From Romboutsia timonensis (lineage in GTDB: Bacteria; Bacillota; Clostridia; Peptostreptococcales; Peptostreptococcaceae), in assembly GCF_900106845.1 (NCBI RefSeq), contig NZ_LT629850.1, positions 240,747 to 304,746 of the forward strand: a stretch of 64,000 nt of DNA, written 5' to 3'. How positions within the stretch are numbered: position 1 is the stretch's first letter; every line of letters begins with the position of its first letter. Shown here piece after piece: positions 11,871 to 43,512 of the stretch. Both the position numbers and the translations under genes were made by a program. The notes under the pieces were generated by a model. It did no database searches, was not told the origin of the DNA, and saw nothing but the letters and a program-made list of their open reading frames with translations.

Positions 11871-12290
11871 ATGAGTAAAAAATTATTTACAGAAGAGGAA
11901 ATAATAATATTAAAACAAAACAAATACGTTAAGAAAGTAACTTCAAAAGGTATTACTTATACAGATGAATTTAAAAGAATATTTATAGATGAAAATGGTA
12001 ATGGTAAACTTCCTAGAATAATATTTGAAGAGTGTGGCTTCAATATCGATATTATAGGCATGCAAAGAGTTAAATCTTCTGCTAGCAGATGGCGTACGGC
12101 CTTTAAAAATGGCGGAGCTATAAAACTTACAGATACTCGCAAATACAATACTGGAAGACCTATTGAGAAAGATCTTTCAATAGAAGAAAAATACAAAAAA
12201 CTAGAAGCTAAAATGAAGTTACTTCAAGCTGAAAATGAATTACTAAAAAAGTTAGACATGATAGAAAGGAGAGTGTTAAAGAAGAAGTAA
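11871..12290 (+). CDS. IS3-family OrfA (helix-turn-helix protein)
   Basis: The 139-residue upstream reading frame of the element. It has a basic helix-turn-helix region that binds the terminal repeats and a C-terminal Lys/Leu/Glu-rich coiled coil (about residues 103-128, ending in ENELLKKL) of the leucine-zipper kind used for OrfA/OrfAB pairing. ATG 11871 follows GGAG. The slippery heptamer A-AAA-AAG at 12245-12251 lies in the correct phase near its end, so some ribosomes should shift into the OrfB frame and make the OrfAB transposase. The frame is intact. Confidence 0.83.
   Translation: MSKKLFTEEEIIILKQNKYVKKVTSKGITYTDEFKRIFIDENGNGKLPRIIFEECGFNIDIIGMQRVKSSASRWRTAFKNGGAIKLTDTRKYNTGRPIEKDLSIEEKYKKLEAKMKLLQAENELLKKLDMIERRVLKKK
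12245..12251 (+). promoter_or_regulatory. Programmed -1 frameshift site A-AAA-AAG
   Basis: In the OrfA frame the codons read CTA-AAA-AAG, so A-AAA-AAG is in canonical phase. The -1 frame is open from here without a stop through the OrfB ATG at 12356 (35 codons) to 13201. GAAAGGAG lies 18-25 bases downstream; a downstream position is not the usual stimulatory one for such a site. Confidence 0.75.
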
Positions 12291-12355
12291 GTTTATTTTC
12301 TTGTGAAAAATATGAGATTATTAAGTCTACAATAAAAAAATATAAACTTAAAAAT

Positions 12356-13201
12356 ATGATAAGTTATTTATGTAAAGTTGCAGGTGTATCACGTTCTGGG
12401 TATTATAAATACTTCTCATCAGAAAGCAAGGATTTAAGAAAATCAAGAGAAGATAAAGATATTTTATCAAAAGAAAATGTATTAAAAGCTTTTAACTTTA
12501 AAGGACGTAAAAAAGGTGCAAGACAAATAAAAATGGTTTTAAAAGATAGATTTAATATAATATATAATTTAAAGCGTATTAGGAGAATAATGAAAAAATA
12601 TGGAATAGTTTGCCCGTATAGAAAAGCGAATCCTTACAGACGTATGATGAAAGCAAGTAAAGAGCATACTATTGTTTCTAATTTCATAAACAGAGAATTT
12701 AAGCAAGATATACCATATAAAGTGCTATTAACAGATATTACATATTTAAGTTATAAAAATGGAAAAAAAGCATACTTGTCTACAATAAAAGACTCCTCTA
12801 CAAATGAAATATTAGCTCATTATGTCTCAGATAACCTACGGTTAGATATTGTTTTAAATACACTAGAAAAACTTAAGTCAAATGTGAATTTAAAACTCCA
12901 TAGCGAAGCTATTTTACACTCAGATCAAGGTGTTCATTACACGAGTCCTAAATTTCAAAAGCAAGTACAGCAATTAGGTTTAAAACAATCTATGTCAAGG
13001 AGAGGCAATTGCTGGGACAATGCTCCACAAGAATCATTCTTTGGGCATTTTAAAGATGAAGTTATTCTTAGCAAATGTAGTACATTAGAAGAAGTGATAA
13101 AAGAAATAGATGATTATATGGATTACTATAATAATTATAGATATCAATGGAATTTAAGCAAGATGACTCCTGTTCAGTACAGAAATCATCTTGTTTCTTA
13201 G
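12356..13201 (+). CDS. IS3-family transposase OrfB (DDE integrase domain)
   Basis: Catalytic half of the transposase, 281 residues from the first ATG but normally made as an OrfAB fusion by frameshifting at 12245-12251. It has an HTH_21 region (GARQIKMVLKDRF) and an rve integrase core. The catalytic triad is complete: D127 (LTDITYL), D190 (HSDQGVHY) and E226 (NAPQESFFG), with the 35-residue spacing between the second Asp and the Glu typical of the family. No good ribosome site precedes the ATG, which supports translation by frameshift. It ends 38 bases before the right terminal repeat. Confidence 0.88.
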   Translation: MISYLCKVAGVSRSGYYKYFSSESKDLRKSREDKDILSKENVLKAFNFKGRKKGARQIKMVLKDRFNIIYNLKRIRRIMKKYGIVCPYRKANPYRRMMKASKEHTIVSNFINREFKQDIPYKVLLTDITYLSYKNGKKAYLSTIKDSSTNEILAHYVSDNLRLDIVLNTLEKLKSNVNLKLHSEAILHSDQGVHYTSPKFQKQVQQLGLKQSMSRRGNCWDNAPQESFFGHFKDEVILSKCSTLEEVIKEIDDYMDYYNNYRYQWNLSKMTPVQYRNHLVS

Positions 13202-19999: not shown

Positions 20000-20644
20000 A
20001 TGAGAATACCAAAACATGTAGGTATAATTCCGGATGGAAATAGAAGATGGGCACAAAATAAGGGAATGACTAAAGACAAAGGATATGAAAATGGACTTGA
20101 TCCAGGGATTGAAGCATATAGAGCATGTAGAGATATGGGAGTAGAGGAAGTTACATTTTATGGATTTACTACAGATAATACTAAAAGACCATCTATTCAG
20201 ACTAAAGCTTTTACAGATGCATGTATAAAAGCTGCTCATATATTAAATGATGAAGGGGCATCTCTTTTAGTAATAGGAAATACTAAATCTCCAATGTTTC
20301 CAAAAGAATTATTACCATTTACAAATAGGACAAAAGGAAAAGATGGACAAATAAAGGCTAACCTATTAGTAAACTATGGTTGGCATTGGGATTTAAATAC
20401 ACTAGCAGATGCAGAAGGTGTAAATAAAAATAATATACAAAATCATATACAGTCATTTGATATATCAAGATTAGACTTGATTATAAGATGGGGAGGAAGA
20501 AGACGATTAAGTGGATTTTTACCTGTTCAATCTATATATGCAGATTTTTATGTATTAGATGAGTACTGGCCAGATTTTAATAAAAATCATATATCAGAAG
20601 CCTTTAAATGGTACAATACACAGGATGTTACTTTAGGTGGATAA
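20000..20644 (+). CDS. Divergent undecaprenyl-diphosphate-synthase-like protein
   Basis: 214 residues of the cis-prenyltransferase (UppS) family, shorter than the usual 240-250. The N-terminal catalytic Asp is kept (IIPDGNRRWA, D12). However, the C-terminal signature that normally reads Arg-Thr-Ser/Gly-Gly-Glu and supplies a magnesium ligand reads IIRWGGRRRLSGFL, with Arg in place of Glu. It may therefore be a paralogue with altered activity, or a non-catalytic partner, rather than the housekeeping enzyme. ATG 20000 follows GAGGTGA. The wall amidase downstream suggests a role around wall precursor lipid. Confidence 0.75.
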   Translation: MRIPKHVGIIPDGNRRWAQNKGMTKDKGYENGLDPGIEAYRACRDMGVEEVTFYGFTTDNTKRPSIQTKAFTDACIKAAHILNDEGASLLVIGNTKSPMFPKELLPFTNRTKGKDGQIKANLLVNYGWHWDLNTLADAEGVNKNNIQNHIQSFDISRLDLIIRWGGRRRLSGFLPVQSIYADFYVLDEYWPDFNKNHISEAFKWYNTQDVTLGG

Positions 20645-20757: not shown

Positions 20758-21579
20758 ATGGCTAATAGAAGAAATAATAGAAGAGGTAGACGAAATAAAA
20801 AACGAAGAATAAATAAAAATAAATTAGCATTATTATTTATAGTAGTTATATTGTTTATTGCTGGAGCTTTTAAATTAACACAAAGTGCAATTTCAACAAT
20901 AAAAAATACAAGTAATAATAAAAAACAAACATCTGTTGTTGAAAGTTCAAATGTTGTTGAAAGTTCAGATAATGAATATGAAACTTTACCGACAGAAGTA
21001 GATAAAAATATAAATAAAAAATATACAATACTTATAGATCCAGGTCATGGAGGTAATGATAAAGGAACTATAGCCAATGATAAAATAACATTTGAAAAAG
21101 ATATAACATTAAAAGTTGGAGCATTAGTGGCTCAAAAGCTAACAAAACAAAAAGATGTGCAAGTAATAATATCAAGAAATGAAGATAAATACGTAAGTCT
21201 AGCAGATAGAGCAAAGCTTGCTAATGAGCAAGGTGTTGATGCACTTGTATCTATACATCTAAATGGTCAAACTGGAGGAACTGACGCATTTGGACTTGAA
21301 ACTTATTATACAAAAGAAAAAAATGATGGTTCATATGAACTTGCAAAACAAATTCAAGAAACTATAACTTCATATATAGATGTAAGAGATAGAGGTGTAA
21401 AACCAGAAAGATTCCAAGTTTTATTACAAAGTAAAATGCCAGCAGTATTAATTGAATGTGGTTTTTTATCTAATGATGAAGAAGCTAAAAAATTAAAAGA
21501 TGAAGCATATCAGGAAAGTTTAGCAGAAGGTATAGCTCAAGGAATATTAACATATTTAGATACAAACTCAAAAAAATAA
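20758..21579 (+). CDS. N-acetylmuramoyl-L-alanine amidase (Amidase_3)
   Basis: Zinc amidase of 273 residues that removes stem peptides from MurNAc. A very basic N-terminus and one membrane helix (about 23-42) anchor it, followed by a short linker with a repeated VVESS motif and the Amidase_3 domain from about 88. Expected residues are present: His in DPGHGGNDKG, Glu in FEKDI, His in SIHLNG, and the catalytic Glu in IECGFLSN. The helix lacks a signal cleavage site, so the enzyme probably remains attached outside the membrane. Note CAAAAA, the CamA target in C. difficile, at 20751-20756, between the ribosome site and the ATG. Confidence 0.9.
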   Translation: MANRRNNRRGRRNKKRRINKNKLALLFIVVILFIAGAFKLTQSAISTIKNTSNNKKQTSVVESSNVVESSDNEYETLPTEVDKNINKKYTILIDPGHGGNDKGTIANDKITFEKDITLKVGALVAQKLTKQKDVQVIISRNEDKYVSLADRAKLANEQGVDALVSIHLNGQTGGTDAFGLETYYTKEKNDGSYELAKQIQETITSYIDVRDRGVKPERFQVLLQSKMPAVLIECGFLSNDEEAKKLKDEAYQESLAEGIAQGILTYLDTNSKK

Positions 21580-21602
21580 AGATGGCAAATGCCATCTTTT
21601 TT
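21578..21602 (+). terminator. Terminator after the amidase gene
   Basis: AAAGATGGC and GCCATCTTTTTT with a short loop, immediately after the stop codon. Confidence 0.85.
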
Positions 21603-21679: not shown

Positions 21680-22588
21680 ATGAGTGATTCTACTTTTAAT
21701 ATATTATCATTTGATGGAGGGGGAATTAGAGGGGCTTTAAGTATAAAATTATTAGAAAAAATACAAAATGAAACTCCTAATATAGTAAAAAAATCAAATA
21801 TGATAAGTGGAACATCGACAGGAAGTTTAATAGCTCTAGGTTTAGCTTATGGGATGACTCCAAGTGAAATAAGTAATTTATATTCAAAAGAAAATCTGGA
21901 GTATATATTCGATAAATCTTATTCACAAATATCAAGACCTAAATATGATAATAATCACTTAAAAGAAATACTACTTAGTGTATTTCCAGAAAATTTAAAG
22001 TTAAAGGACTTAGGTAAGTTAGTTGTAATACCAACATTTTATGTAGGTAATGAATATAATTCTTGGAAAGCTATTTTTTATAATAATCTACCAAATTCAG
22101 AAACAGAAGATTATAGGGTTGTAGATGTTGCAATGGCCAGTAGTGCAGCACCTGTATTTTTTCCATCATATGATTGTCATATAGATGGAGGCATAATAGC
22201 AACAGATCCAAGTTTAGCAAGTATAATATATTCTATAGATGAGGAACTTGGAAAGAGAATGGATCAAATAAGACTTTTATCCTTTGGAACGGGATATTGT
22301 TACAATAGTATAAAGGAAGATACAAGTAAATGGGGTGCTATAGATTGGGTTATAAGCAAGGATCCAGATCTACCTATAATATCGGTAACACTAGAAGGAA
22401 ATGCTCAGCTTAGTCAAATTTTTTCTAAAAAGCTATTAGATAGCAATTATTATAGAGTAAATCCTAAGATGGATAAGGACATATCAATGGATGATACAAA
22501 ATCAATGGATTATTTATTAGAATTAGCAGAGGAATATAATATAAAAGATTGTATAAATTGGATAAATAACAAATGGAATAAAATATAG
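21680..22588 (+). CDS. Patatin-like phospholipase, upstream of camA
   Basis: 302-residue serine lipid hydrolase with the full patatin catalytic set: oxyanion loop DGGGIRG (residues 12-18), nucleophile Ser46 in GTSTG, and Asp169 in HIDGG. No signal peptide or membrane helix is seen, so it should act on the inner membrane leaflet or on cytosolic lipid. The family cleaves acyl chains from phospholipids. ATG 21680 follows AGGAGG. The camA ribosome site begins about 40 bases after its stop with no terminator between, so the two are probably in one transcript. A second patatin gene lies beyond camA. Confidence 0.88.
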   Translation: MSDSTFNILSFDGGGIRGALSIKLLEKIQNETPNIVKKSNMISGTSTGSLIALGLAYGMTPSEISNLYSKENLEYIFDKSYSQISRPKYDNNHLKEILLSVFPENLKLKDLGKLVVIPTFYVGNEYNSWKAIFYNNLPNSETEDYRVVDVAMASSAAPVFFPSYDCHIDGGIIATDPSLASIIYSIDEELGKRMDQIRLLSFGTGYCYNSIKEDTSKWGAIDWVISKDPDLPIISVTLEGNAQLSQIFSKKLLDSNYYRVNPKMDKDISMDDTKSMDYLLELAEEYNIKDCINWINNKWNKI

Positions 22589-22637
22589 TATACTATAATT
22601 AAATATAAAAGTGTTTGTCGTGTTTAGGGGGAGAAAA

Positions 22638-24335
22638 ATGGGAGAAACTTTTGCTATATCTAAGTTATATGAAGAAAGCTTAGATATAAATATAAAAAAA
22701 AGTAAAGGAGTATATTATACACCGAAAATTATAGTAGACTATATACTTAATAAGACTATAAAAAATCATGATATACTTAAAAATCCGATACCAAAAATAT
22801 TAGATATATCATGTGGTTGTGGAAATTTTTTATTAGAGGCATATGATATTTTGTATGATTTAATAGAAAAAAATTTATACGAATTAAAGGAATTATATGG
22901 TGATGATTATATAAGCTATGATACTATTCATAACCATATAATAACTAATTGTATATATGGATACGATATTGATGCTGAAGCAGTAAATATATTAAAACAA
23001 GGACTTAAAGATAAAGGTAAAGGATTATCAGTAGATAAGTTTAACATATATTGTGAAGATTCACTAAAGATAAAATTAAATAACAAGTTTGACTATATAA
23101 TAGGAAATCCACCGTATATAGGTCATAAAAATTTAGATAGTGATTATAAAAAATATATACTAAAAGAATACAAACAAGTATATAAAGGTAAAGCAGATTT
23201 ATATTTTTGCTTTTATAAAAAAATAATAGATAATTTAAAAGATGATGGGGTTTGTAGTATTATAACTCCGAGATACTTTTTAGAAAGCCCATCAGCTAAA
23301 GACCTAAGAACTTACATAGATAAAACTACTAACATAGTAGAAATAATTGATTTTTTAGGATGTGAAGTTTTTAAAGACATAGGAATATCTAGTTGCATAT
23401 CTACATTAAAGAAAGAAAAAAATTCACAAAGTACCAATATTCTAAGAATAAAAAATCAATCAATAGACATAAATCAATTTCATTCCATAGAAAAACTTAT
23501 AGAAAATAATATTTTTGAAAGGTTAATATTATATAAAAATACAATAAATAAAGATTGGATAATAATTAAAAAAGAGGATAAAACTTTTTATGATAAAATT
23601 GAAGACTATTGCAATTACTCTTTAGAAGATATATGTACAAGTTTTCAAGGTATAATAACAGGATGTGATAAAGCCTTTGTAATAGATAAAGATGATGAAA
23701 AAATAAATCTTATAGATGATAGATTTCTTAAATCATGGGTAAAAAATAAAGAAATTCAAAAATATACAATTAAAGATAATAGATATAAGTTAATATACTC
23801 AAATGATATAAAAAATGAATCAGATAATCCTATAATAATAAATGATTTTATAGGGAAATATAAAGAAAGACTGCTAAATAGAAGAGAATGTAAAAAGAAA
23901 TTAAGATTATGGTATGAACTTCAATGGGGAAGGGAAAAAGCTATTTTTGAAAGAAAAAAAATAATGTACCCATATAAATCTTTTGAAAATAGATTTGCCA
24001 TAGATGAAAATAATAGTTTTTCTAGTGCAGATGTATATTCATTTTATATAAATAAAGAGTATGAGGAAATTTTTTCTTACGAATACTTAGTAGGACTATT
24101 AAACTCTGAAGTGTATAATAAGTATTTTAAGATAAACGCAAAGAAGATAAGTAAAAATGCATATGACTATTATCCTAACAAAGTAATGAAAATTAAGATA
24201 TTTAAGGATTCTAATTATACACATATAGAAGATTTATCAAAACAAGTTTTACAGAGACTAAAAAATGGTGAAAGTAATATAAGTGATTTAGAGTATAAAA
24301 TAAATAATCTGATTAGAGGATCCCTTGGCATATAA
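22638..24335 (+). CDS. camA: CamA-type orphan adenine DNA methyltransferase
   Basis: 565-residue N6-adenine methyltransferase. Residues 24-30 (GVYYTPK) are the SAM-pocket motif X, 56-62 (DISCGCG) motif I, and 157-160 NPPY the catalytic motif IV. A C-terminal target-recognition region includes SFQGIITGCDKAF and LWYELQWGRE. From memory it aligns along its length with C. difficile CamA (CD2758), which methylates the last A of CAAAAA and influences sporulation. No restriction gene is adjacent, as expected for CamA. ATG 22638 has AGGGGGAG upstream. The context (amidase before, ptsHI after) also resembles C. difficile. Identity and target site remain to be tested. Confidence 0.88.
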   Translation: MGETFAISKLYEESLDINIKKSKGVYYTPKIIVDYILNKTIKNHDILKNPIPKILDISCGCGNFLLEAYDILYDLIEKNLYELKELYGDDYISYDTIHNHIITNCIYGYDIDAEAVNILKQGLKDKGKGLSVDKFNIYCEDSLKIKLNNKFDYIIGNPPYIGHKNLDSDYKKYILKEYKQVYKGKADLYFCFYKKIIDNLKDDGVCSIITPRYFLESPSAKDLRTYIDKTTNIVEIIDFLGCEVFKDIGISSCISTLKKEKNSQSTNILRIKNQSIDINQFHSIEKLIENNIFERLILYKNTINKDWIIIKKEDKTFYDKIEDYCNYSLEDICTSFQGIITGCDKAFVIDKDDEKINLIDDRFLKSWVKNKEIQKYTIKDNRYKLIYSNDIKNESDNPIIINDFIGKYKERLLNRRECKKKLRLWYELQWGREKAIFERKKIMYPYKSFENRFAIDENNSFSSADVYSFYINKEYEEIFSYEYLVGLLNSEVYNKYFKINAKKISKNAYDYYPNKVMKIKIFKDSNYTHIEDLSKQVLQRLKNGESNISDLEYKINNLIRGSLGI

Positions 24336-24393
24336 TCACAAATATAATATTTCTACATATAATATATTTGAGTGTAAAAAGGGAGGAATATAT

Positions 24394-24738
24394 ATGATTA
24401 ATGCAAGGGTAGATCAAAATTCAAAAACTGTGTATGTTGATGTTAGTGGCTATATAACTAATGAAGAAGCAAATTCATTTTTAGCAAAACATAAGCAAAT
24501 GACAAAGGGTCTAAGAAAATCACAGTATAAATTAGTGGTTACACCTTCTAAATTTGAATGTGAAAATGACAATGATATAAAATCAGTTTGTATAGCCCTA
24601 TATAAAGGTGGATATAGACAAATATATATGGTAGATCCAAAAGGATATATAATGAATACAGTATCACTAAGTTCTATGGAGCAAAAAATGTTTACAAAAG
24701 TAGTTAAGTTTGTAAAATCTGTAGACGATATAAAGTAA
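24394..24738 (+). CDS. Small protein of unknown function downstream of camA
   Basis: 114 residues starting at ATG 24394, chosen because AGGGAGGA sits 6-13 bases upstream; a longer frame from 24325 would overlap camA and lacks a ribosome site. The pattern is alternating strand and helix (VYVDVSGYI, a helix, YKLVVTPSKF, a helix, QIYMVDPKG, a helix), which recalls a STAS/SpoIIAA-like fold, but I do not recognise the family with confidence. There is no signal peptide or membrane segment. It is 58 bases behind camA on the same strand, so co-expression with the methyltransferase is plausible. Confidence 0.7.
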   Translation: MINARVDQNSKTVYVDVSGYITNEEANSFLAKHKQMTKGLRKSQYKLVVTPSKFECENDNDIKSVCIALYKGGYRQIYMVDPKGYIMNTVSLSSMEQKMFTKVVKFVKSVDDIK

Positions 24739-24760
24739 TTTAATAATTACTATAAAATGA

Positions 24761-24831
24761 AAGATATATACCTAGTAACTTTTAAACTTGAAATACAGGA
24801 TAATTTATAATATATTCTAAGTATATATCTT
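24761..24831 (+). repeat. Long-loop inverted repeat before the second patatin gene
   Basis: AAGATATATACCTAG at 24761-24775 and CTAAGTATATATCTT at 24817-24831 pair at 14 of 15 positions around a 41-base loop. A T-rich tail (TTCTTGTTTAATA) follows. It may be a terminator, a leader structure or an operator pair. Confidence 0.45.
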
Positions 24832-24854
24832 TCTTGTTTAATATAGGTGATTTT

Positions 24855-26066
24855 ATGAAAGGTTTAGTATTAGAGGGAGGAGGCACTAAGGGTGCTTACC
24901 AAATAGGAGCATATAAAGCTTTAAGAGATTTAGGAATTGAGTTTCAAGGTGTAGCAGGAACATCGATAGGAGCCTTAAATGGTGCATATATAATTCAAAA
25001 TGATATAGAAATTATGGAAGATATTTGGCTAACATATGACTATACTCATTTTATGAATATAGATGAAGAAACTTATGAAAAATATAAAAATGTAGATTTC
25101 ACTGCAAAAAATATAAATAGTGTTATAGAACTTATAAATAAAGCTAGAAAAAATGAAGGTATAGATATCAGTCCACTTAGGGAGCTATTAGAAAAAACAT
25201 TAAATGAAGATATTATACGAAAATCTAATAAAGATTTTGGTCTTGTTACAGTTTGGTGGGATAAAAAAATAAATCCACACCCATTATACATAGAAGATAT
25301 ACCAAATAAAAGGCTTATTGATTACTTAATAGCAAGTTCAAGTTTACCAATATTTCAATTAAATCGAATAGATGATAAACTTTTTTTAGATGGAATGTTT
25401 TTTGATAATATGCCAATATCTTTACTAGAACAAAAAGGATATGAAGATATAGTAGTAATAAGATTACTTGATGACTTTCTAGGAAAAATAAATTTAAATA
25501 AGTATCAAAATATAAATATAAAAACAATAGTACCATCAGAGTATTTAGGAGGATCCTTAAATAAAGATAAGGATAATGTACAAAAAAATATAAATTTAGG
25601 ATATCTAGATGCTATGAAAGCTTATGACAGGTATGAAGGAATTAAATATTATTTTAATGTAGACTATATGTTTGATGAAGAGTATTGTTTTAATAAATTT
25701 AAAAGCTTAAAAACAGAAACTATAGAAAATATATTAAATTTATTTAATATAAAGAAAGATTCTACATTAAGAACATTATTAGAAGTTTTAATACCTAAGC
25801 TTGGTGAAAATTTAGGATTAGATAAAGATTTTTCATATAAGGATTTATTCTATTGTATATATGAAAAAAAGCTTGAAGAAAATAATATAAATAGAATTCA
25901 GCTTTATGATTTTCATAAACTCTATGATGTAGTAAATAAAAATATAAATGAAAATAAAAATATATCCTTAACTTATGAAACAAAATCAATAATACCAATG
26001 CAAAAAAATAAGTTTACAAAAGTAATTACTAATAGTATTATAAAAGATTTTTCAAATCAATTCTAA
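24855..26066 (+). CDS. Patatin-like phospholipase (RssA/YchK type), downstream of camA
   Basis: 403-residue serine hydrolase of the bacterial patatin group. The first 190 residues carry the catalytic parts: LEGGGTKGAYQIG oxyanion loop, Ser37 in GTSIG, and the Asp in FLDGMFFDNMP (DGM where DGG is more common). The C-terminal half is a family-specific extension with no recognised motif. No signal peptide. The start at ATG 24855 fits AGGTGA just upstream; a TTG frame from 24834 has no ribosome site. It is clearly different in sequence from the patatin before camA, so the two are not a recent duplication. Confidence 0.86.
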   Translation: MKGLVLEGGGTKGAYQIGAYKALRDLGIEFQGVAGTSIGALNGAYIIQNDIEIMEDIWLTYDYTHFMNIDEETYEKYKNVDFTAKNINSVIELINKARKNEGIDISPLRELLEKTLNEDIIRKSNKDFGLVTVWWDKKINPHPLYIEDIPNKRLIDYLIASSSLPIFQLNRIDDKLFLDGMFFDNMPISLLEQKGYEDIVVIRLLDDFLGKINLNKYQNINIKTIVPSEYLGGSLNKDKDNVQKNINLGYLDAMKAYDRYEGIKYYFNVDYMFDEEYCFNKFKSLKTETIENILNLFNIKKDSTLRTLLEVLIPKLGENLGLDKDFSYKDLFYCIYEKKLEENNINRIQLYDFHKLYDVVNKNINENKNISLTYETKSIIPMQKNKFTKVITNSIIKDFSNQF

Positions 26067-26199: not shown

Positions 26200-26460
26200 A
26201 TGGAAAAAAATGTAAGCATAAAAAACGCAAGCGGATTACACGCTAGACCAGCAGGAATGTTTGTTAAAAAAGCTGCTGAGTTCAAATCTACAGTAGAAGT
26301 AATAGCAAAAGGAAAAACTGTAAACGCTAAATCTATAATGGGTATAATGAGCTTAGGATTAGGTCAAGGTGATGAATTAACAGTTGTTGCTAATGGTGAA
26401 GATCAAGAAGCAGCAGTTAACGCTTTAGTTGAATTAATCGAAGGTGGATTTGGAGAATAA
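26200..26460 (+). CDS. ptsH: PTS phosphocarrier protein HPr
   Basis: 86-residue HPr that carries phosphate from enzyme I to sugar-specific EIIA proteins. The active His14 lies in GLHARPAG and the regulatory Ser45 in NAKSIMGIM, so HPr kinase could make HPr(Ser-P), the CcpA cofactor for catabolite control. Such control is supported elsewhere in the window by the cre site before ptsG. ATG 26200 follows a perfect GGAGG. ptsI follows after a short hairpin, giving the usual ptsH-ptsI pair. It starts a new unit after the patatin gene. Confidence 0.97.
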   Translation: MEKNVSIKNASGLHARPAGMFVKKAAEFKSTVEVIAKGKTVNAKSIMGIMSLGLGQGDELTVVANGEDQEAAVNALVELIEGGFGE

Positions 26461-26529: not shown

Positions 26530-28242
26530 ATGTATAATGGAACAGGAGCATCTCCAGGGATAGCATTAGGGAGGGCTTTAGTAATAGAGCATAGTGAATT
26601 AGTTATAGAAAAAAAGACTATCGAGAATATAGATGAAGAAATACAAAAGCTTGAGAGTGCAGTTAAGGTATCTAAAGAAGAATTAACTAAGGTTAAGGAA
26701 AAGGCTTTAGCTGAGCTAGGAGAGCATGAAGCTGAAATATTTGAAGCTCATTTATTAGTATTAGAAGATCCTGAATTAATTGGCTCTGCAATATCTAAAA
26801 TAAGAGATGAAAAAGTTAATGCAGACTATGCATTAAATGAAATAAAAGAAATGTTTGTTGCAATGTTCGAATCTATGGACAATGAATACATGAGAGAAAG
26901 AGCAGCAGATATAAAAGACGTTACAAATAGGGTATTAAGACATATATTAGGTATAAAAGTAGTTGATTTAGCAGGACTTGATGAAGAAGTTGTATTAATA
27001 GCACACGACTTAACTCCATCAGATACAGCTACAATGAACAAGAATATGGTGCTTGGGTTCTTAACTGATATAGGTGGAAGAACTTCTCATACAGCTATAA
27101 TGGCTAGAACATTAGAAATAGCTGCTGTAGTTGGATTAAATGATATAACTAAAAAAGTAAAAGATGGGGATTATATAGTATTTAATGGAGATACTGGTGA
27201 AGTTAGAGTTAATCCTGATGAAGAAACTAAAGCTAAATATGCTTCATTAAAAGAAGAATTTGAAGAATACAGAAAGTCTTTAGAATTATTAAAAGGACAA
27301 GCATCAATAACTACTGATGGTAGACATGTTGAACTTGCAGGGAATATAGGAAGTCCTAATGATGTAGAAGGACTTATAAAGAATGATGCTGAAGGTGTTG
27401 GACTTTATAGAACTGAGTTCTTATACATGGATAAAGAGGATTCTTTCCCAACTGAAGAAGAGCAATATGAAGCTTATAAAGCAGTACTTGAAGGAATGAA
27501 TAATAAACCTATAGTAATAAGAACATTAGATATAGGTGGAGATAAAGAACTTCCTTACTTTGAAATGGAGGCTGAAATGAATCCATTCTTAGGATACAGA
27601 GCTATAAGACTTTGTTTAGATAGAAAAGATATATTTAAAACTCAATTAAGAGCTTTATACAGAGCAAGTGTACATGGAAAATTAAGAATAATGTTCCCTA
27701 TGATATCTTCACTTGAAGAATTATTAGATGCTAAAGAGGTAATAAAAGAAGTATTAAAAGAATTAGATGCAGAAAATATAGCTTACTCTAATGATGTAGA
27801 GGTTGGTATGATGATAGAAATACCATCTGCAGCAGTTATATCTGATGTATTAGCTAAGCATGTAGATTTCTTCTCAATAGGAACTAATGACCTTATACAA
27901 TACACTTGTGCAGTAGACAGAATGAACCAAAAGATAAGTCATTTATACAATCAATTTAATCCAGCAGTATTAAGACTTATAAAAATGGTTATAGATAATG
28001 CTCATAAAGAAGGAAAATGGGTTGGAATGTGCGGAGAAAGTGCAGGAGATCAAAGAATGATACCGATACTTTTAGGATTTGGATTAGATGAATTCTCTAT
28101 GAGTCCAATATCTATACTTCCAGCAAGAAAATTAATAACTTCTTTATCTTATGCAGATATGCAAAAATTTGCAGATGAAGTATTAGCTATGGGTACAGCG
28201 AAAGAAATAAAAGAATACGTTGATAAAACTTTCAATATTTAG
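26530..28242 (+). CDS. ptsI: PTS enzyme I (phosphoenolpyruvate-protein phosphotransferase)
   Basis: First enzyme of the phosphotransferase system: takes phosphate from PEP and passes it to HPr. Its 570 residues match the family. They comprise the HPr-binding N-terminal domain, the phospho-His domain with His187 in GGRTSHTAIMAR, and the PEP-binding barrel with the Cys in GMCGESAGD near residue 500. ATG 26530 follows GAGGAGGAG. It follows ptsH on the same strand and supplies the EIIA and EIIBC proteins encoded 30 kb downstream. A strong terminator follows. Confidence 0.97.
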   Translation: MYNGTGASPGIALGRALVIEHSELVIEKKTIENIDEEIQKLESAVKVSKEELTKVKEKALAELGEHEAEIFEAHLLVLEDPELIGSAISKIRDEKVNADYALNEIKEMFVAMFESMDNEYMRERAADIKDVTNRVLRHILGIKVVDLAGLDEEVVLIAHDLTPSDTATMNKNMVLGFLTDIGGRTSHTAIMARTLEIAAVVGLNDITKKVKDGDYIVFNGDTGEVRVNPDEETKAKYASLKEEFEEYRKSLELLKGQASITTDGRHVELAGNIGSPNDVEGLIKNDAEGVGLYRTEFLYMDKEDSFPTEEEQYEAYKAVLEGMNNKPIVIRTLDIGGDKELPYFEMEAEMNPFLGYRAIRLCLDRKDIFKTQLRALYRASVHGKLRIMFPMISSLEELLDAKEVIKEVLKELDAENIAYSNDVEVGMMIEIPSAAVISDVLAKHVDFFSIGTNDLIQYTCAVDRMNQKISHLYNQFNPAVLRLIKMVIDNAHKEGKWVGMCGESAGDQRMIPILLGFGLDEFSMSPISILPARKLITSLSYADMQKFADEVLAMGTAKEIKEYVDKTFNI

Positions 28243-41745: not shown

Positions 41746-43512
41746 ATGTTTGATAACAATAATACAGAAAATTATAAAATGAAAAACTTAGTTGATATAT
41801 CAGCTATGGTAACTCAATCATTAAATTTCTTTGATATAAAGGATAAAATAATAGAAAAAATGCTTGAGGTAGTTCATCCCACTAAAGCATGTGTAAATTT
41901 ATTTTATAGGAATAACTATGAATATGCTTATTTAGTGTGTTCGGAGACTTTAAATGAAATACCAGATTTATTTGATATAAAAACTTCAAGGGGAATTAAA
42001 ATAGATTTTAATGAATACCCTAAATATATACATGAAGCTGTAGCTAAAAAGGAAATAATATACATAGAAAACATATTTGAAGATGAAAGAGCAGTAGATG
42101 AAAGAGAATTAGCTAAAAAAGAAGGATATATAGGAAGAATTGTTTTTCCTCTTGTTGTTAATTATAATGTAGTAGGTTTTATGACTTGCTTTTTAACTAA
42201 AGATGATAAAATAAATGAATACGATATAGATTTTATTTCATCTGTATCATCTCTTATAAGTTTATCTATAGATATAACAATGAAAAATAACAATACTCAT
42301 ATGTTAGTTCATAAATTAAGAGGTGCTATTAGCTCTATAAATGAAGCAATACAAAAGTTATATTTTAATAATAATATAAATGAGTTTTTAGATCATTTAA
42401 GTAAACAAGCTTGCCATATAACACACAGTAAGGAGACTATAATAGTAACGGAAAAAGTAGAGAATAAAAATAAGATGTTTAGTTTCTATGGTGTAGAAGG
42501 AAAAAAGCAAACTAACATATATCCTATAATCGGAAAAATCCTATCTCAAGATTCTATAGGAGCATATTGTAATGAAAATAAATTACATTATAATGAAATA
42601 AAAAACTATATATACTATAAGATTAAAGATAGTAAATCAGTCATTGGTTACATAGTATGTGCAAATAGCCCTAACTATACAGATGATGATTTAAATATAT
42701 TAAGTATATTTGCAAAACAGCTTTCGGTAGCACTTAAATTATATGAATATAATTTAGTAGAGATTAAACATAAGATTCTTGAAAATGAATTAGATGTATT
42801 AAATAAACAGCAAAAACTAATAATGAATGAAGGTAAAATAAAATATAGTATAGATAATGAATTAAATTTCTATCATAGACCAGCTAAAGTAGTAGGTGGG
42901 GATTTTTATCATGCAATAAAAGTTAGTGATGAAAAAATAGTGTATATACTAGCTGATGTAATGGGACATGGTATAGTATCAAATTATGCAGTAGCTATTA
43001 TAAAAGGAGCATTTAAAGTATTATCTAGAATTTGTAGCTCACCTGGAGAAATAATGACTAATCTAAATGATATGCTTTATGATGAATTTGATAAAATGGG
43101 AATATTCACAACTTGTTTAGTAAGTATGATAGATACCAAAGAAAATACAATAACAATATCAAATGCAGGTCATTATAGTCCTATTATAATAAAAAAAGAT
43201 AGTTCTATAAAAAGAGATTTAGATTGTAAAAAAGGGATACCAATAGGTGTTATAGAAGATGTAAGCTATGAAAATAATGTATTAAGCCTAGATGAATGTA
43301 GCATGATTTGTATGTATACAGATGGGGTATTAGAGATAAAAAATAAATCAAAAGAAGAATATGGAATATCTAGATTAGAAAACTTTATAAAAAATAATTA
43401 CAAAAATAATCAAGAAGTAATTATAGAAAAACTAAAAAGTGAACTTAAAGAATTCTCTAATAAGGATAACTATGATGATGATATATTAATAGTGATGCTA
43501 AAGAATAATTAA
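41746..43512 (+). CDS. GAF-domain PP2C (SpoIIE/RsbU-type) serine phosphatase
   Basis: 588-residue cytosolic signalling protein. Two GAF-like sensor regions (about 25-175 and 195-335) and a linking helix precede a SpoIIE-type PP2C domain from about 360 to the end. Metal-binding residues are visible in VVGGDFYHA and ILADVMGHG near 380-405 and in CMYTDGVLEIKNK and NYDDDILIVM at the C-terminus. Such enzymes dephosphorylate STAS anti-anti-sigma proteins in partner-switch pathways. No anti-sigma kinase or STAS gene is adjacent, so the target must lie elsewhere. ATG 41746 follows AGGGGGAGG. Confidence 0.9.
   Translation: MFDNNNTENYKMKNLVDISAMVTQSLNFFDIKDKIIEKMLEVVHPTKACVNLFYRNNYEYAYLVCSETLNEIPDLFDIKTSRGIKIDFNEYPKYIHEAVAKKEIIYIENIFEDERAVDERELAKKEGYIGRIVFPLVVNYNVVGFMTCFLTKDDKINEYDIDFISSVSSLISLSIDITMKNNNTHMLVHKLRGAISSINEAIQKLYFNNNINEFLDHLSKQACHITHSKETIIVTEKVENKNKMFSFYGVEGKKQTNIYPIIGKILSQDSIGAYCNENKLHYNEIKNYIYYKIKDSKSVIGYIVCANSPNYTDDDLNILSIFAKQLSVALKLYEYNLVEIKHKILENELDVLNKQQKLIMNEGKIKYSIDNELNFYHRPAKVVGGDFYHAIKVSDEKIVYILADVMGHGIVSNYAVAIIKGAFKVLSRICSSPGEIMTNLNDMLYDEFDKMGIFTTCLVSMIDTKENTITISNAGHYSPIIIKKDSSIKRDLDCKKGIPIGVIEDVSYENNVLSLDECSMICMYTDGVLEIKNKSKEEYGISRLENFIKNNYKNNQEVIIEKLKSELKEFSNKDNYDDDILIVMLKNN

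Follow-up and report, generated by a model that had tools for sequence, protein, structure and literature searches.

The 64-kb window analysed here (the whole stretch of 64,000 nucleotides from Romboutsia timonensis contig NZ_LT629850.1, in a genome of 3.1 Mb and 21 contigs) encodes a DNA methyltransferase that, judged by alignment, phylogeny and locus, is a true ortholog of CamA (CD2758) of Clostridioides difficile, and hence a known kind of system. We consider it highly probable that Romboutsia camA specifies a lone gamma-class methylase, likely directed at the last A of CAAAAA, for which the route through the sporulation gene spoIIE is closed and other sites are used. The features of the gene are as follows.

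22638..24335, + strand: camA ortholog, gamma-class N6-methyladenine (m6A) DNA methyltransferase, 565 aa from ATG; assigned by 745 bits to CamA, tree, base contacts, and dN/dS (ratio of nonsynonymous to synonymous substitution rates)
22803..22823, + strand: camA motif I, DISCGCG, binding S-adenosylmethionine (S58 corresponds to CamA S62); from the sequence and the CamA alignment
23106..23117, + strand: camA motif IV, NPPY, catalytic, residues 157–160; from the sequence and the CamA alignment
23517..24287, + strand: camA target recognition domain, limits approximate; from the alignment to CamA

Orthology to CamA

The window protein aligns over residues 3–565 with the C. difficile CamA chains 7lni and 8cxz at 745 bits, far above chance, and is about 60% identical to CamA. 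It contains the Pfam domains Eco57I, N6_Mtase, and TaqI_C. The m6A signature of the gamma class, an SxGxG motif I followed by NPPY, is found at positions aligned with those of CamA. An in-frame GTG at 22611 lies upstream of the ATG.

A methyltransferase tree of 62 rows, built with a quick search, unites the window protein with three congeners (support 100). This group sits within a clade of 30 Peptostreptococcaceae rows, C. difficile CamA among them, that has a Shimodaira–Hasegawa-like approximate likelihood ratio test (SH-aLRT) value of 99. The Tepidibacter and g6 proteins fall in a separate clade, together with enzymes from other families (support 81). The methyltransferases of the family therefore do not form one clade, and three label changes are needed on the tree; transfer or deep duplication possibly lies behind this pattern. 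The closest named relative, an uncultured Romboutsia from chicken (G003, same genus), has a camA 86% identical to that of the window.

An earlier note on this DNA had proposed an ortholog of CamA in another genus, and alignment, tree, locus, and contact residues bear this out. The dN/dS of camA against two congeners is 0.137 and 0.176, similar to that of the neighbouring pat1 and small gene described below. These values argue that camA is maintained in the genus Romboutsia under purifying selection.

Base contacts and predicted specificity

The CamA residues that touch the bases of CAAAAA are named in a structural account (passages of PMC8187626). Fourteen of the 15 tabulated contacts are identical in the window protein, and all 10 core contacts are kept. 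The recognition-domain residues at these positions are Q337, I340, R416, Q429, W430, R432, Y446, K447, S463, A464, S505, and Y512. The contact table leaves aside four short or broken sequences (L040, L041, L045, and L055).

The camA loci of named genomes were located with the peptides KIMYPYK and YDYYPNK, which hold three contact residues. For this reason contact conservation was tested on homologs from profile or whole-protein searches. Among 40 distinct homologs of this kind below 45% identity (mean 38%), 39 keep all 10 core contacts. Of the 258 recognition-domain columns, 37 show at least 97% identity, and these 37 hold 10 of the 13 contacts in the domain, an enrichment with p = 2.4e-7. Two weak homologs, G018 and G005, differ at three of the 10 core contacts. 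The Tepidibacter-type homologs (L038, L039, L057, and L149–L152) carry N-terminal extensions of about 140–170 aa, and some also C-terminal ones; their 10 core contacts are kept.

One strong homolog lies at 1,681,040 in G181, and Awo_c14460 is expected near 1.68 Mb in Acetobacterium woodii (passages of PMC3315566). The G181 homolog is apparently Awo_c14460, an enzyme described in the relevant part of PMC6700114 as methylating CAAAAAR at the sixth position in a cloning assay. CAAAAAR methylation in C. pasteurianum is assigned to a lone methyltransferase gene (excerpts of PMC4690370 and PMC5027557), that of E. limosum is tabulated (table in PMC9503626), and that of other clostridia is in print (sections of PMC10745947). 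Because the contacts are kept and clostridial relatives are reported to methylate CAAAAAR, CAAAAA is the best prediction for the target of the window enzyme.

Distribution of camA

A search profile built from 12 CamA orthologs matches 63 of 71 Peptostreptococcaceae genomes at E ≤ 1e-20. Four of the matches are weak (E 1e-31 to 1e-41; G005, G018, G021, and G026), and without them camA orthologs are counted in 59/71 genomes. The ortholog of G030 is broken, and several others are split over contigs or contain inserts. No CamA match was found in the remaining eight of the 71 genomes, namely the g20 genomes G022 and G070, G077 (75% complete), and five of the nine g5 genomes.

Beyond the family, 49 of 391 sampled genomes of the class contain CamA homologs at E ≤ 1e-45, six of the 49 being Peptostreptococcaceae. 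A scan of named genomes yielded 46 camA loci, 35 of which were assigned to Peptostreptococcaceae by name or synteny. The other 11 include Thermohalobacter and Sporosalibacterium. Homologs with the same contact residues are present in other clostridial families, apparently including that of A. woodii.

These counts contradict the view, carried by the earlier note, of CamA as largely restricted to C. difficile and a few relatives. In passages of PMC8187626 and PMC13395437 CamA is called rare beyond C. difficile or specific to that species, and the latter, a paper of July 2026, makes the point anew. By its occurrence in the genomes sampled, CamA is a widely kept Peptostreptococcaceae gene and not a speciality of C. 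difficile. CamA orthologs across the family are not described among the literature matches listed, which do not extend to the survey of orthologs in the first report of CamA. Two findings appear new against these matches: camA throughout the family with unchanged contacts, and repeated loss of the methylated base at spoIIE with the enzyme kept.

Some individual genomes may be recorded here. In L040 and L167 (G030, Faecalimicrobium) pat1 and camA are both broken, and the frames of the small gene and pat2 are open. Seven genomes (G025, G078, G079, G007, G084, G085, and G086) have camA and no spoIIE match, which hints at a role other than sporulation. At L216, 5851–10667, in an f51 genome, about 1.4 kb and a single gene separate a CamA homolog from a spoIIAA-spoIIAB-sigF-like operon downstream of it (identified by eye).

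Loss of the Me3 base at spoIIE

A single CAAAAA, Me3, carries the sporulation effect of CamA in C. difficile, and in the spoIIE promoter it adjoins a Spo0A box and the −35 region (portions of PMC13395437). Me3 was taken as the promoter-proximal one of three CAAAAA in the C. difficile sequence, and the homologous position elsewhere was located from the distance to the −10 box. Of the 71 family genomes, 54 yielded spoIIE, and the site was read in 51; it is cut by a contig end in G093 and incomplete in G033 and G072.

The site is CAAAAA in 36 of the 51 genomes, CAAAAT in 12, and CAAATT in three. In all 15 genomes without CAAAAA the methylated adenine is replaced by T, and camA is present. The base is lost in all four genomes of the genus Romboutsia (CAAAAT), in 4/4 of g9 (Intestinibacter), in 5/6 of g14 (Terrisporobacter; one not readable), and in two of the four read in g10. 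Ten of 12 outgroup genomes were read (G053 and G056 were left out), giving one CAAAAA, one CAAAAT, and eight with CAAAT and another base. At least three changes between the two Me3 states are needed on the SpoIIE tree. This tree has 54 rows, 45 of them with a state; five near-identical Clostridioides rows, L129, L146, and L147 were left out.

Loss of sporulation could be a reason for the loss of Me3; spoIIE and spoIIGA are both present in the genus Romboutsia. The window genome has no CAAAAA in the 230 bp before spoIIE. With CAAAAT at the homologous site the base to be methylated is missing, so the spoIIE route would be closed in Romboutsia. The loss lowers the functional equivalence of the enzyme to CamA, not its orthology. 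The window itself encodes, at 41746–43512, a protein of 588 aa that combines GAF domains with a phosphatase domain of SpoIIE type; it is distinct from sporulation spoIIE, which sits on another contig.

A probable role outside spoIIE

These observations lead us to the following mechanism, in which methylation and its regulatory effect are inferred from sequence. Across the chromosome, Romboutsia CamA most likely places its methyl group on the final A of CAAAAA. The mark raises spoIIE expression in C. difficile through one promoter site, Me3, a route that the CAAAAT of Romboutsia would close. Since the enzyme is under purifying selection despite the loss of Me3, it most likely acts through other sites, for example at growth, surface, or colonisation genes. 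Romboutsia CamA thus probably has a role other than spoIIE.

Several observations weigh against this reading. The remaining tabulated contact, CamA I517, is A508 in the window protein. The profile that found the distant homologs was built from CamA orthologs and favours relatives with a similar recognition domain. The gene is dispensable in nature: two genomes have the locus intact without it, and in one it is broken. At the spoIIE site CAAAAA is retained in the two g20 genomes that lack camA (g20 is sister to the genus Romboutsia on the SpoIIE tree) and in the outgroup genome G049, which has a remote CamA homolog only. Because of these genomes we suspect that the overlapping Spo0A box may be what preserves the Me3 motif, so that loss of the motif might tell little about CamA. 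Finally, conservation of intergenic CAAAAA between Romboutsia species (400 kb) is 53/77 (69%) versus 522/832 (63%) for controls (p = 0.32), and in a second comparison 30/64 (47%) versus 340/714 (48%; p = 1.0). The controls, 11 hexamers each made up of five A plus a single C or G, were compared across three Romboutsia genomes. As CAAAAA is no better conserved than they are, no global regulatory constraint is visible, and global selection on CAAAAA sites in Romboutsia was rejected.

An unlikely alternative to a non-sporulation role is that CamA still controls Romboutsia sporulation through another promoter. Three Romboutsia genomes share 25 of 111 intergenic CAAAAA sites in the 400 kb, and one of the 25 lies upstream of spoIIGA (a family search match below cut-off). 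The spoIIGA site, read by eye as TTTTTG, resembles the T-run of a terminator-like sequence found in many genera, and it was rejected as a rewired sporulation target. The lack of CAAAAA-specific conservation overall also speaks against such a switch.

A broader history, which we hold tentatively and rate somewhat short of probable, would make CAAAAA methylation an old orphan system of the family, with sisters elsewhere in the Clostridia. The spoIIE wiring would have arisen near the root and been cut at least three times, and CamA would have a second function. The proposed cuts are in Romboutsia, in Intestinibacter with Terrisporobacter, and in two g10 genomes, the enzyme being kept each time. 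Our estimate for this history, like that for the main reading, is lowered because camA-less genomes keep Me3 and because orphan status was tested in the window only. If this history is true, these genera are natural Me3 mutants that expose a second, more widely shared function of CamA.

The locus of camA and its neighbours

The earlier note had described a same-strand cluster of a patatin gene, a 565-aa methyltransferase with DISCGCG and NPPY motifs, a 114-aa protein gene, and a second patatin gene. The checked positions of the open reading frames (ORFs), together with Pfam matches, confirm this arrangement: pat1, camA, the small gene, and pat2 all lie on the + strand within 21680–26066, with intergenic gaps of 49, 58, and 116 bp. 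The surrounding features are as follows.

20000..20644, + strand: uppS-type prenyl diphosphate synthase (Pfam Prenyltransf), syntenic with camA in many family loci; upstream edge of the conserved locus
20758..21579, + strand: N-acetylmuramoyl-L-alanine amidase, CwlD-like (Pfam Amidase_3), conserved upstream neighbour by synteny
21578..21599, + strand: hairpin resembling a terminator, where the amidase gene ends (consensus scan)
21680..22588, + strand: pat1, CapV-like patatin phospholipase, 302 aa (Pfam Patatin, 82.7 bits)
24394..24738, + strand: 114-aa protein, predicted STAS/SpoIIAA-like fold (AlphaFold2 model and PDB fold match)
24855..26066, + strand: pat2, patatin, 403 aa from ATG (Pfam Patatin, 99.9 bits), conserved downstream neighbour of camA, including in C. 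difficile
26203..26460, + strand: ptsH (HPr), downstream edge of the conserved locus (named by eye from the sequence; synteny)
26530..28242, + strand: ptsI (enzyme I; named by eye from the sequence; synteny)

The amidase scores 132.7 bits against the NCBIfam CwlD model, under its cut-off of 221.55, and pat2 has weak similarity (35 bits) to NCBIfam RssA. The 114-aa ORF is counted from its ATG; the longest ORF of that frame begins at TTG. With a terminator-like hairpin closing the amidase gene, the camA cluster may begin downstream of it, with pat1, camA, and the small gene on one transcript. Elsewhere in the window, at 11871–13201, a transposase pair (HTH_Tnp_2 and integrase core) lies near cell-wall hydrolase genes, two of which have CWB2 domains.

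The earlier note also suggested that the flanking patatins and the small protein form a functional unit with the methyltransferase. Family comparison upholds part of the neighbourhood: in 31/35 family loci, C. difficile among them, pat2 comes directly after camA or after the small gene, and ptsH is nearby in 31/35 (all but three Tepidibacter loci and L041). The association of the other two genes is looser. The small gene is present in 19/35 loci. For pat1, 32 loci include sequence on the relevant side; 13 of them carry the gene, in one case broken. None of the 11 camA loci outside the family has pat1, the small gene, pat2, or ptsH in the DNA examined. Across family genomes, at differing thresholds, pat1 is present in 36/71, the small gene in 36/71, and pat2 in 53/71.

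It is very unlikely that camA, the two patatins, and the 114-aa protein constitute one module, such as a methylation-gated, membrane-damaging defence or signalling system. The genes are on the same strand with short gaps, pat1 is CapV-like and is scored by PADLOC as a phospholipase effector, and the small protein has a predicted regulator-like STAS fold. In Tepidibacter, too, pat1 lies upstream and the small gene downstream of the methyltransferase, at a different chromosomal place. Set against this, G022 and G070 have the locus uppS-amidase-small gene-pat2-ptsH-ptsI intact with camA and pat1 missing. Four g5 genomes carry amidase-camA-ptsH-ptsI without patatins or the small gene. In all eight Clostridioides genomes searched pat1 is absent from the camA locus and located elsewhere, and the window genome has no match to the SMODS nucleotidyltransferase model. 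As camA and its neighbours were lost independently, an obligate functional unit is rejected. The neighbourhood reflects shared inheritance and gives no evidence of a unit.

pat1 scores 168.7 bits against the NCBIfam model CBASS_lipase, under the cut-off of 200 (CBASS, cyclic oligonucleotide-based antiphage signalling system). The SMODS search, the only one made among models for cGAS/DncV-like nucleotidyltransferases (CD-NTases), matches 4/71 family genomes and not the window genome. On these two grounds a CBASS effector was rejected as the identity of pat1.

The 114-aa protein matches no Pfam or NCBIfam family at E ≤ 0.001, and sequence-profile searches gave nothing convincing. Its AlphaFold2 model is of high confidence, with a predicted local distance difference test (pLDDT) value of 91.5. 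The best PDB fold match is 2q3l (DUF3478), with a Z score of 9.9 and a root mean square deviation (rmsd) of 2.8 over 105 residues, and SpoIIAA chains come next (Z about 6–9). A STAS/SpoIIAA-like fold is therefore predicted. In SpoIIAA the phosphorylated serine is positioned before helix 2; no phosphorylatable serine is conserved at that place in 21 aligned orthologs of the 114-aa protein.

Orphan status

The earlier note had found no restriction nuclease gene in the 64 kb. None of the 48 window proteins scanned with Pfam belongs to a restriction nuclease family, which upholds this for 48 of the 65 window ORFs of at least 80 aa; the 17 outside the scan are ptsH, ptsI, four ORFs from 60573 on, and small, mostly antisense ORFs.

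The least probable explanation is that the methyltransferase is an ordinary restriction–modification (RM) enzyme, or the remnant of one, with its partner nuclease elsewhere: Pfam and PADLOC label it an Eco57I-type or type II methyltransferase, distant homologs carry N-terminal extensions of about 100–160 aa, a C. carboxidivorans enzyme that recognises CRAAAAR, a similar motif, is classed as type II RM (part of PMC10745947), and the nuclease scan covered the window and not the rest of the genome, whereas the scanned window proteins contain no nuclease family, the locus is conserved across the family, no nuclease was recognised by eye next to seven homologs, and CAAAAA is mildly under expectation in the window (96 sites versus about 111). 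The N-terminal extensions were considered as fused nucleases and rejected, as no nuclease motif was recognised in them by eye.

Implications

CamA is discussed as a drug target owing to its claimed C. difficile specificity. If close orthologs with the same contacts occur in gut commensals such as Romboutsia, Intestinibacter, and Terrisporobacter, CamA inhibitors could hit those as well. In that case CAAAAA methylation in metagenomes would be no signature of C. difficile. The loss of Me3 in genera that bear camA allows shared functions of CamA to be separated from the sporulation switch.

Comparison with known systems

The nearest known system is C. difficile CamA (PDB 7lni and 8cxz). The Romboutsia enzyme shares with it full-length similarity, the gamma-class motif order, and all tabulated base contacts bar one. 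The locus uppS-amidase-camA-patatin-ptsH-ptsI is also common to both; for the Romboutsia enzyme no partner nuclease is seen among the window proteins scanned. The two differ in sequence (about 60% identity), in the pat1 and 114-aa genes that flank camA in Romboutsia and not in C. difficile, and in the Me3 target of the spoIIE promoter, which is lost in Romboutsia.

A. woodii Awo_c14460, taken as the G181 homolog on the apparent identity of that genome, has the 10 core contacts identical. It differs in its 36–38% identity to CamA, its 697-aa frame with an N-terminal extension, and its other neighbours.

The next-best solved relative, M.BseCI (PDB 7qw5), is similar over most of the length. It reaches only 86.7 bits and has none of the 10 core CamA contacts in an alignment read by eye; its site is ATCGAT.

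Among the neighbours, pat1 resembles the CBASS phospholipase CapV in its Patatin family membership, its score to the lipase model, and its PDB matches to CapV. It differs in that the score is below the curated cut-off and the window genome is without a SMODS match.

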